Shown piece by piece: positions 16,871 through 19,400 of a stretch of 64,000 nucleotides of DNA. The position numbers and the translations under genes are program-made. Location of the stretch: NCBI RefSeq assembly GCF_900129815.1, contig NZ_FQWX01000001.1, positions 1 through 64,000 on the forward strand. Direction: 5' to 3'. Under the pieces are notes generated by a model. That model was given only the letters and a program-made list of their open reading frames with translations, did no database searches and was not told the DNA's origin. Position 1 is the stretch's first letter. The number at the start of each line of letters is the position of its first letter. This stretch comes from Asaccharospora irregularis DSM 2635. Lineage in GTDB: Bacteria; Bacillota; Clostridia; Peptostreptococcales; Peptostreptococcaceae.

Positions 16871-16970
16871 GATATCCCCCCTATTCCTATTCTATAAAAA
16901 TATACCATAAGTTGTATAAAAAGGCTAGAAACAAAGCTATATAGTAAATAATAGGATTCTTAATAAAAAA

Positions 16971-17019
16971 ATATAACCCATAAAATACACTCTTTATTTA
17001 GGTATTTCATGGGTTATAT
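16971..17019 (-). terminator. Terminator after the DUF1858 gene
   Basis: Stem ATATAACCCAT / ATGGGTTATAT, extended by further pairing inside, about 20 bp after the stop. A T-rich run follows on the minus strand. Confidence 0.8.
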
Positions 17020-17040
17020 CTTACTAATAATATTCTTGGT

Positions 17041-17226
17041 TTATTTTTCGTTTAACTTTGCTAATACTTCTTCTAGGTCTAATCCATGTATTTCACAAGC
17101 ATCTTCTAAGCTTTCCATTTGAGATGAAGGGCATCCTAAGCATCCCATTCCTAAATGCATAAGTATTTGTGCTGCATTTGGGTTTAATTTTAATATATCT
17201 GCCATTATAGTATCTTTAGTTATCAT
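17041..17226 (-). CDS. DUF1858 redox-disulfide protein
   Basis: A 61-residue protein of the DUF1858 / hybrid-cluster-associated disulfide family. It has the typical Ile-Thr-Lys-Asp start and a Gly-Met-Gly-Cys-Leu-Gly-Cys motif (two Cys, spacing CxxC). The ATG at 17226 is preferred over an in-frame start at 17265, because GGAGAG lies just upstream. DUF1858 proteins are often linked to redox enzymes. It lies about 100 bp downstream of a siroheme [4Fe-4S] protein, with which it may work. Confidence 0.85.
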   Translation of the reverse strand: MITKDTIMADILKLNPNAAQILMHLGMGCLGCPSSQMESLEDACEIHGLDLEEVLAKLNEK

Positions 17227-17324
17227 ATTATTTTCTCTCCTTTTTATAATTTTGTATTTATACAAAATTTATTATTTATTATTTATTATTAATTATTTAT
17301 TACTAATTTATTATAAACTTAAGA

Positions 17325-17996
17325 CTATTCTAATGTCCTAAATTTTTCTAAAACATCTTCTCTAAACTTTTCTATTCCTATTTTATCTATAAACTCTCCT
17401 AGTTTTTCTCCCATTGCTGCATATTCATTGTAATAGTCTAGGATCACTTTAACTAAATTATAGGCTTCTTCTTCTGATAATCCCTTTGTAACTATGTCAG
17501 CCTGTCTAGGATTAAATCCTGCACTTCCGCCAACTGTTATAAAAAATTTCTTATCCACGTCTACTAGTACACCTATATCTTTTGAGTATACACCGCCACA
17601 GGCATTTCTACATCCACCTACTCCAATTTTTGTTCTATTTGGAAGGGCCATTCCGTGGAAGTTTTTACTTATTTTCATACCTATCCCTATAGTTGGGTGT
17701 TTTGAACGTTTACAGTAGTTTGCTGGACATATCTCTACGTTTTTTATAGAGTACTGACTTCTGACAGCTGGTTCCATACCTAAATCATTCCATATATCTT
17801 TTAAATCTTCTTCTTTTAGGTTTGTTATTAGTATCCTTTGTCCTGAAGTTAACTTCAAAACTCCCTTGTATTTTTTTGTAACCTCTCCAATTTTTATAAG
17901 ATTATCAGCTGTTATAAATCCTCCTGGTATGTGAGGCGTTATAGCGAAGGTTCTTTTTCCATCTTTAATCTTTTGTAAATTCCCAAATTCACTCAT
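17325..17996 (-). CDS. Small siroheme/[4Fe-4S] sulfite-nitrite reductase-like protein
   Basis: A 223-residue protein with one ferredoxin-like half domain (about 10-75) and one siroheme/iron-sulfur domain (80-190). Cluster cysteines Cys90 and Cys95 lie in CPANYC; Cys129 and Cys133 lie in GGCRNAC. Ordinary assimilatory enzymes have two such halves (>500 residues). This size matches the low-molecular-weight sulfite reductases known from Desulfovibrio and methanogens. The ATG at 17996 has AAGGGG upstream and is preferred over a TTG at 18017. The substrate is not established. It starts 7 bases after the 214-residue gene, so the two are co-transcribed. Confidence 0.85.
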   Translation of the reverse strand: MSEFGNLQKIKDGKRTFAITPHIPGGFITADNLIKIGEVTKKYKGVLKLTSGQRILITNLKEEDLKDIWNDLGMEPAVRSQYSIKNVEICPANYCKRSKHPTIGIGMKISKNFHGMALPNRTKIGVGGCRNACGGVYSKDIGVLVDVDKKFFITVGGSAGFNPRQADIVTKGLSEEEAYNLVKVILDYYNEYAAMGEKLGEFIDKIGIEKFREDVLEKFRTLE

Positions 17997-18003
17997 TAGA
18001 AAA

Positions 18004-18648
18004 TTACCCCTTAACAATTTTATTTATAGTTGTATCTCCTTGTTTTTCTATTGTGTAGTTGTATTTAACGTCTAAGTTTTCGATAAAAGTTTTTACCCAT
18101 AACTCTTTCAGGTGATACATATAGTCTAAGTTTGCCTTGCCCATTTCATAATTTGCTCTGTGTATACATCCTGTTTGATGATAAACTATAACTTCTTCAT
18201 TTTTCTCAGTTATAGAGTTCACTCTATCACAAGGCATTCCTGATAGTATATAATTGTTTAATGACATATATACGTTTTCTGGAGTGTTTGTCTTGTTTTC
18301 ATCATTCGCTGCACACTTCTTAGCTTGAATTTCGTATTCATTTTCAGTTATTTCTTTGCTTTGTTCTTTGTACATATCATGGTACTTAGTTATTATATAT
18401 GCACTTCTACTTTCTACTTCTTTTATTCTTTCTTGTAGCCAACCATGTATATTATCTGTATCTATAAGTTCTTCTAGAGGTCTTGAATCTATATATTGTC
18501 CATATATATCTTGTGCTTCTTTTTGAACATTACTAGCCTCTTCTCCAAACTTATCTATATGTGACTTTACTATACTTAACTCTAAGTCTTGTAGCAATTT
18601 TATTTTACCAAACAACCAGCTGTGTATTGGTGCTAAAAATAAACTCAT
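18004..18648 (-). CDS. Uncharacterised partner of the small siroheme protein
   Basis: A 214-residue soluble protein not assigned to a named family. It is rich in charged helices. The C-terminal half has a conserved-looking block with Gly-Met-Pro-Cys-Asp-Arg, then Gly-Cys-Ile-His-Arg-Ala-Asn-Tyr-Glu, and an aromatic Trp-Val-Lys-Thr-Phe-Ile-Glu-Asn segment. Cys and His placement suggests cofactor or metal binding, but this is inference. It is immediately upstream of the siroheme protein (7-base gap), so it may supply electrons, chaperone the cofactor or act on the substrate. A good ribosome site (AAAGGAG) precedes the ATG. Confidence 0.7.
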   Translation of the reverse strand: MSLFLAPIHSWLFGKIKLLQDLELSIVKSHIDKFGEEASNVQKEAQDIYGQYIDSRPLEELIDTDNIHGWLQERIKEVESRSAYIITKYHDMYKEQSKEITENEYEIQAKKCAANDENKTNTPENVYMSLNNYILSGMPCDRVNSITEKNEEVIVYHQTGCIHRANYEMGKANLDYMYHLKELWVKTFIENLDVKYNYTIEKQGDTTINKIVKG

Positions 18649-18932
18649 ATCGTGTTCTCCTTTGTGTTTAGATATTAATAGTGTTTCCCTATTTGTTGTT
18701 TTTATTATAAACTATTGCCTCTTTGCAAGTATGTAACGTATGTTACAAATCTTATATCTAGTTATTTTTTGGCAATATTTTGTTTGTATAAACTCTATTA
18801 TAATGTCTAGTTTATAAAATTCATATAGATTTTATCTATTTATCAGCATCTCTTAATAGATATTAGGTATTTTCTGTAAAATTGATACTAATATATAATT
18901 TATATTAACAGTAATTATATCTAATACCACTT
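18649..18932. other. AT-rich intergenic region, divergent promoters
   Basis: About 280 bp between the leftward redox unit and the rightward ECF remnant. No ORF, structured RNA or strong hairpin is evident. It does not contain an intact N-terminus for the ECF gene in any frame. Confidence 0.45.
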
Positions 18933-19400
18933 TTGTTTTTGGATACTGTAGGAACAATATTAGGAGCAGTAATTTTGGGTCCACTTTATGGTGCACTTGT
19001 TGGTGGGTGCACGAATTTAGTACTAGGAATTATATCAGGTCCTACAAATATACCATTTGCATTAGTTAGTATTGCAATAGGTTTGGTTGTCGGACTTATA
19101 GCTAAAAAAAGAAAATTCAGCTACAAGGAAGCTATAATAACAGGACTTATATTAGCTGTTTTATGTCCACTTATAGGAACACCTATATCAGTTCTTGTGT
19201 TTGGTGGGCTAAGTGGAAGTGGAGCAGATTTTCTAGTAGGATTTTTAATGAAATCTGGAAAAGATATATTTACAGCAGCCTTTATCCCAAGGATATTAAC
19301 AAATATAGTTGATAAAGTGATTTCTTGTTTAATTGTAGTATTCTTTATTGATAGAATGCCTAAGAGTTTTATCAATGACGCCAAAAAATCTTTAGTATAA
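18933..19400 (+). pseudogene. ECF transporter S-component, N-terminally truncated
   Basis: The 155-codon frame encodes five hydrophobic helices. It begins in the middle of the usual Leu-Pro-Leu-Phe-Leu-Asp-Thr-Val-Gly-Thr-Ile motif, which in ECF S-components follows the first membrane helix. The only starts are TTG codons at 18933/18939 with no ribosome site. In-frame codons upstream reach a stop at 18912, so the first helix is missing. S-components bind vitamins or precursors and pair with EcfAAT. No ATPase is adjacent. It is likely a non-functional remnant, though a non-canonical start is possible. Confidence 0.6.

Follow-up and report, generated by a model that had tools for sequence, protein, structure and literature searches.

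A putative HcpR2-controlled nitrosative-stress operon of Asaccharospora irregularis encodes a small NirB-like siroheme protein, a DUF1858 protein and a partner without a family name

Nitrite and NO can confront anaerobes of this group in the host gut, and in C. difficile the regulator HcpR protects against NO, with hcp and frdX as its targets (PMC12915319). The HcpR2 consensus operator, GTAACnnnnGTTAC, has been described in the hcp upstream regions of Clostridium and other genera, where it is linked to a proline at recognition-helix position 181; C. difficile is said to carry a variant motif (Rodionov 2005, PMC1274295). The same source lists ferredoxin-, hemerythrin- and cytochrome-like genes as additional targets and, in delta-proteobacteria, nrfHA and others.

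YtfE of E. coli is reported to be an NO-generating nitrite reductase. Its di-iron site receives electrons from the cysteines of the N-domain, and it has been proposed to act together with Hmp and Hcp (PMC9052748). A YtfE-like hemerythrin gene of Desulfovibrio desulfuricans rises with NO (PMC5701242), and the early response of Bacillus cereus to NO stress includes the joint up-regulation of a RIC gene, of nitrite reductase and of siroheme genes (PMC8151001). Among siroheme proteins, DEACI_1836 of Acididesulfobacillus acetoxydans (300 aa) is NirB-like without FAD; its transcript increases 16-fold with nitrate and it was proposed to turn nitrite into ammonia (PMC10949509).

We analysed a stretch of 64,000 nt from A. 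irregularis DSM 2635 (NZ_FQWX01000001.1, positions 1 to 64,000; hereafter the window). A preliminary description, made from the letters alone, had claimed three ORFs at 17041-18648, and all of them are present there on the minus strand. They encode a 214-aa protein without a family name, referred to here as the partner (18004..18648, ORF call), a small NirB-like siroheme/[4Fe-4S] half-protein of 223 aa (17325..17996 from the ATG; Pfam, NCBIfam and cysteine spacing) and a DUF1858/TIGR03980 redox-disulfide protein of 61 aa with the motif CLGC (17041..17226 from the ATG; Pfam and NCBIfam). Only 7 bp separate the partner stop codon from the siroheme ATG, and a ribosome-binding-like AAGGGG lies inside the 3' end of the partner gene. 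The siroheme and DUF1858 genes are 98 bp apart, and this gap may hold an internal promoter. RNA folding revealed a terminator-like hairpin followed by a T-run directly past the DUF1858 gene (16968..17022, minus strand; -25.8 kcal/mol, z -6.28, none of 200 shuffles as stable), so that the transcript plausibly ends behind this gene; a simple terminator scan reported no terminator, this hairpin included. A sigma-70 promoter scan gave 13 promoter-like sites against 13.0 in shuffles, that is, no excess. The gene set recurs, its arrangement varying, across several families of the order and also in the single Fusobacteriota record examined, and owing to this recurrence the grouping is not attributable to chance. 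Judged from their arrangement, the partner, siroheme and DUF1858 genes look like a single minus-strand operon. At 18933-19400 there is an ORF that by eye resembles the S component of an ECF transporter; its N-terminal part is absent and the upstream frame is rich in stops, which suggests that the gene is possibly truncated.

The main clue to this operon, which is absent from the preliminary description, is an HcpR2 palindrome. An exact match to the published pattern GTAAC-N4-GTTAC (PMC1274295) is located on the minus strand at 18733..18746 and reads GTAACGTATGTTAC. It is the sole exact match in the window, where one-mismatch matches occur at chance level. Its centre lies 30 nt ahead of a TATAAT hexamer (18704..18709, minus strand), a candidate -10 box, and if the hexamer does serve as such the operator is centred at about -42.5. 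Eight exact sites are found in the 2.62-Mb genome, compared with one for a reversed control pattern. Besides the site at the siroheme operon, one is upstream of an hcp gene adjoining a Crp/Fnr gene, one precedes a second hcp that stands behind a hemerythrin gene, and one is upstream of that hemerythrin gene. Of the four left over, three fall within ORFs and the fourth precedes an ORF named by eye as rpsL-like; these four were counted against the explanation of the locus as an HcpR2 operon, as was the third hcp gene of the genome, which has no exact site. The Crp/Fnr protein encoded beside hcp contains the helix IPRPSLSR, placed by eye, with the Arg-Pro that HcpR2 requires; the genome combines a regulator carrying proline at the specificity position with an operator of the GTAACnnnnGTTAC type at an activator position, two features of an HcpR2 regulon. 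The palindrome at 3915-3928 of contig C61 of this genome (G000), exact and HcpR2-like, falls between rpoC-like and rpsL-like ORFs and may be due to chance.

Conservation of the operator was analysed at 61 partner loci, made up of the window and 60 loci fetched from the 70 match places outside it. The ten match places left out were mostly weak ones, two genomes contribute two loci each, and the sample is phylogenetically clumped. In the stretch from -300 to +40 relative to the operon start, 28 of the 61 loci have an exact site and nine a one-mismatch site, compared with 0.03 and 0.42 in mononucleotide shuffles. Of the remaining 24, 11 have a Crp-like TGTGA-N6-TCACA box with up to two mismatches (3.1 in shuffles). 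Neither type of site is present in this stretch at 13 of the 61 loci, and these too were counted against the HcpR2 explanation; among them, L063 has an exact site slightly further upstream and L056 offers a short upstream stretch only. When the stretch was widened to -400 to +60, exact sites were present at 29 of the 61 loci, with 0.54 sites expected from the rest of the loci. Around these 29 sites the agreement with TATAAT is highest at a single spacing (on average 4.86 of 6 positions matched, against 3.55 at the runner-up); with this spacing the site is centred at -41.5, from which the window deviates by one base. Class II Crp/Fnr activators occupy this position. One further point was counted on the negative side: the C. 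difficile study of HcpR (PMC12915319) does not use the words siroheme, sulfite reductase, hemerythrin or DUF1858 in its main text. Overall, we consider it almost certain that the operon is linked to HcpR.

The siroheme protein matches both Pfam half-domains above the cut-off (NIR_SIR_ferr, E 1.6e-15; NIR_SIR, E 3.4e-22) and has its cysteines spaced C-X4-C-X33-C-X3-C, with the motifs CPANYC and GGCRNAC, as expected from its earlier description as a 223-residue single-half siroheme-type protein. No NCBIfam model reaches its cut-off. The best one is NirB (TIGR02374), with 124.7 bits against a required 578, a full-length score that falls short in a protein lacking the FAD and NADH domains of NirB, whereas the sulfite models give 46.5 bits or less. 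AsrC scores 32.8 bits against a cut-off of 324, and the extra ferredoxin-type cluster cysteines of that type are absent; of the two tandem halves required of NirA/CysI one is present. The earlier idea of a dedicated redox operon distinct from the AsrC and NirA types is likely to be right. Three other NIR_SIR-domain genes are present in the genome. A 322-aa protein with extra ferredoxin-type cluster cysteines is encoded elsewhere in it, and it has a siroheme-dehydrogenase-type gene near porphyrin/cobalamin-looking ORFs (neighbours named by eye). A single-chain structure prediction of the siroheme protein was unusable (pLDDT 43.9).

An alternative view is that the protein is a sulfite reductase, small and of the assimilatory type, for which DUF1858 and the partner would act as accessories in sulfur handling. 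The fold superfamily and the single-half size are the same, and alSir, the low-molecular-weight enzyme of D. vulgaris, has been described as monomeric and small, carrying a single coupled siroheme-[4Fe-4S] centre (PMC3448663). Against this stand the far higher score of NirB than of any sulfite model and the HcpR2-type site at the operon, the two reasons for which we lowered our estimate of this possibility, together with the alternation of the partner with hemerythrin genes (see below) and the three other NIR_SIR-domain genes. Sulfite, which the preliminary description had kept among the substrate options, is thus disfavoured, and we rate a sulfite reductase as rather improbable. As far as can be judged from the protein sequence and its regulatory setting, nitrogen-oxide chemistry is the probable function of the siroheme protein.

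The canonical first pair of cluster cysteines in this superfamily is C-X5-C, within the pattern C-X5-C-Xn-C-X3-C. The shorter C-X4-C of the window protein was found in all 43 rows above 370 bits and in the six rows at 280-370 bits, which constitute a second small family, and in these same rows the next cysteine pair follows 33 residues on. C-X5-C is seen in the siroheme-DUF1858 fusions of L169 and L170 and in the larger reductases of the genome. A search of 119 genomes with the small siroheme protein gave matches in 53 at 1e-5; going by the match listing, the close form occurs in 41 genomes besides its own. We fetched 23 loci in which a close siroheme gene lies away from the partner. DUF1858 adjoins it in 13 of them and is absent in 10, and the exact HcpR2 site is upstream in eight and not in 15; six loci of one genus lack both. 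One of the 23 loci, L127, has the order hcpR-hcp-siroheme-DUF1858. The second small family (L138, L139, L140, L141, L142 and L144) shows the motif CSANFC or CSSNFC, and no exact HcpR2 site or DUF1858 gene was found beside the siroheme genes of these six loci.

The CxxC protein previously placed downstream of the siroheme gene and assigned to DUF1858 scores above the cut-off with both Pfam (DUF1858, E 6e-21, with CLGC present) and NCBIfam, where TIGR03980 bears the name hybrid cluster protein-associated redox disulfide domain. Its strong structure matches are 2k53 and 2k5e. It also aligns over its full length, weakly, with ScdA N-domain structures (E 0.043 and 0.19), and Pfam ScdA_N gives E 0.0011, below the cut-off. 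Since the operon contains the DUF1858 protein only, and no protein that joins ScdA_N to hemerythrin, it does not encode a RIC (YtfE/ScdA) protein. Siroheme-DUF1858 fusions with a NirB-like half are encoded beside the partner in L169 (404-1477, plus strand) and L170 (2118-3149, minus strand), as identified with Pfam and NCBIfam. HCP-DUF1858 fusions occur in L081 (Pfam, NCBIfam) and in L080 and L087 (local profile). On the basis of the weak homology to the ScdA N-domain, the pairing in operons and the fusions, we infer that DUF1858 delivers electrons, and this small protein is a plausible candidate for the electron donor of the siroheme protein.

At a threshold of E 0.001 the partner was detected in its own genome and in 66 of 118 related ones, in five of which the match was weak or partial; among 398 genomes sampled across the phylum, 22 contain it, its own included. 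It gave no match above the cut-off in Pfam or NCBIfam and none in PDB, in agreement with the earlier statement that its family is unknown, and neither it nor the operon carries a name in the open-licence PubMed Central literature that was searched. Several candidates were discarded. For a remote hemerythrin/YtfE identity there was a single weak YtfE match among the 48 members scanned, that of the window protein (E 0.04); comparison with the profile of the neighbouring hemerythrins put the probability at about 0.1%, and no relation was found to the hemerythrin, siroheme, Crp and HCP profiles built in this work. Sub-threshold matches to other Pfam families were scattered, the commonest occurring in seven of the 48 members, and the single-chain structure prediction (pLDDT 45.7) was unusable. 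Viral contigs yielded three pattern matches and no relative, and a scan of genome contigs gave a single locus, L002, with a 24-residue match. In 60 aligned rows the residues M1, S2, H9, K15, N66, I67, H68, L71, Q72, E79, G137, P139, C140, D141 and H163 are invariant; at position 161, 51 rows have Cys and nine have Asp. These invariant residues, H9, H68, E79, C140, D141 and H163 among them, suggest a probable metal site.

Two records deserve separate mention. In L157 (NZ_CP128848.1, 9041-19664), labelled as a Streptomyces flavofungini plasmid, the partner gene is surrounded by clostridial-looking neighbours, which we take from their accessions to be C. perfringens-like; this record is possibly a contamination. 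In L077 (G032, contig C6) a second partner copy is accompanied by DUF1858, the same genome having a siroheme-linked copy as well, and a 58-residue match to the small siroheme protein is found near L077.

The preliminary description had linked the partner to the small siroheme gene and had named an unlinked partner in other genomes as the observation that would speak against it. Of the 60 loci fetched outside the window, 17 have the two genes side by side, so the linkage stands, but it is not exclusive. Including the window, the partner adjoins a small siroheme gene in 18 of the 61 loci, a hemerythrin-domain gene instead in 27, neither in 16 and both in none, and the view of the partner as specific to the siroheme protein is not supported. 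DUF1858, or an HCP joined to DUF1858, is near the partner in 15 of the 18 siroheme loci and 19 of the 27 hemerythrin loci, as read from the table; at least one DUF1858 gene was missed by ORF calling (L159, visible in the annotated record). The genes of Cetobacterium somerae (Fusobacteriota) run siroheme-DUF1858-partner and are preceded by an exact HcpR2 site; Paraclostridium bifermentans has partner-hemerythrin-NifU-DUF1858-hcp and Peptoclostridium acidaminophilum DUF1858-partner-hemerythrin. In a quick partner tree, in which 19 of the 57 inner branches are weak, most siroheme-linked partners group in one clade, and a minimum of two switches between a siroheme and a hemerythrin neighbour is required. 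The three hemerythrin neighbours tested match Pfam Hemerythrin and no NCBIfam model, those for YtfE and ScdA included.

The 16 loci with neither neighbour are what would be expected if the partner were under HcpR control yet took no part in the same reaction. We regard this as very improbable: the partner occurs in 34 of the 41 genomes with a close siroheme gene and in 32 of the 77 without one (Fisher 1.5e-5, kinship not corrected), and the linkage holds in the Fusobacteriota record. HCP occurs in 66 of the 67 genomes that have the partner and in 42 of the 52 others (Fisher 0.001, kinship not corrected), a difference that says little because HCP is nearly universal (108 of 119 genomes) and kinship is uncorrected.

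The alternation with hemerythrin-domain genes bears on another possibility, namely that the siroheme protein and DUF1858 do not act as a turnover enzyme but form a repair or sensing pair that binds NO or shields other metal centres, while the partner serves as a chaperone for iron or clusters. RIC proteins of the same hemerythrin-domain class have been proposed to repair iron centres (PMC9268430), one related operon (L158) contains a NifU gene, and the partner has its conserved set of His, Glu and Cys. However, the siroheme protein still has all four cysteines of the cluster and the arrangement in two domains that siroheme reductases show, and YtfE itself is described as a nitrite reductase that donates iron only upon damage to its di-iron centre (PMC9052748). 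A repair or sensing role is accordingly unlikely, if less so than a sulfite reductase.

We therefore favour, as reasonably probable, an HcpR2-controlled nitrosative-stress operon in which a siroheme protein reduces nitrogen oxides, DUF1858 supplies electrons and the partner binds metal. The alternation of hemerythrin and siroheme genes beside the same DUF1858, often under the same operator, fits a modular design with DUF1858 as the source of electrons for a catalyst that acts on nitrite or a related nitrogen oxide. The HcpR2-type Crp/Fnr regulator, encoded next to hcp elsewhere in the genome, would bind the palindrome at about -42 and switch the operon on under NO or nitrite stress. The small siroheme protein, probably resembling the single siroheme half of NirB, would then act on a nitrogen oxide; its most likely reaction is the reduction of nitrite to ammonia, and NO or hydroxylamine are possible substrates as well. 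The CxxC motif of DUF1858 may pass electrons to it, as the N-domain of YtfE does with its vicinal cysteines to the di-iron site. In the weakest step, the partner might work as a metal-binding protein with either catalyst, siroheme or hemerythrin di-iron, handling nitrosylated iron or protecting or reloading the metal centre of the catalyst. More tentatively still, the partner could represent a new family of metalloproteins in the defence of anaerobes against nitrogen oxides, an enzyme or dedicated helper whose His/Glu/Cys site serves either of two unrelated catalysts, siroheme or di-iron, both fed by the same detachable DUF1858 thiol carrier and the siroheme one bearing a shortened cluster motif. 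HCP is known in the nitrosative response; a second arm, based on siroheme and sharing its operator, would be a little-studied route for the disposal of nitrite or NO. It would show how these anaerobes turn over nitrite and would provide a function for DUF1858, so far annotated as HCP-associated. The exchange of siroheme for di-iron beside a constant partner makes the role of the partner directly testable.

In comparison with known systems, the siroheme protein is most similar to the siroheme domain of NirB (TIGR02374), its best NCBIfam match, with which it shares the Pfam domain pair; it differs in that 223 aa leave no room for the FAD/NADH part and in having C-X4-C instead of C-X5-C. DEACI_1836 is, by its description, likewise NirB-like without FAD and adjoins a hypothetical gene, DEACI_1835, but it is longer (300 aa) and its other neighbour is a ferredoxin gene (PMC10949509). 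The alSir protein of D. vulgaris is described as a small single-half siroheme protein as well, although it is named an assimilatory-type sulfite reductase (PMC3448663). With YtfE/ScdA (RIC) the locus has in common a DUF1858 protein weakly resembling the ScdA N-domain and, in the alternative neighbour of the partner, a hemerythrin domain; here, however, the N-domain-like protein is separate, the catalyst of the operon is siroheme and not di-iron, and the three neighbouring hemerythrins tested match none of the YtfE/ScdA NCBIfam models. Finally, the siroheme operon shares its operator with two hcp genes of the genome, as expected of the HcpR2 regulon, whereas the targets named for that regulon in PMC1274295 are hcp and frdX, with no siroheme operon among them. 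The regulon and each class of catalyst are already known; what appears to be new is the combination of genes, the family of the partner and the shorter spacing of the cysteines.
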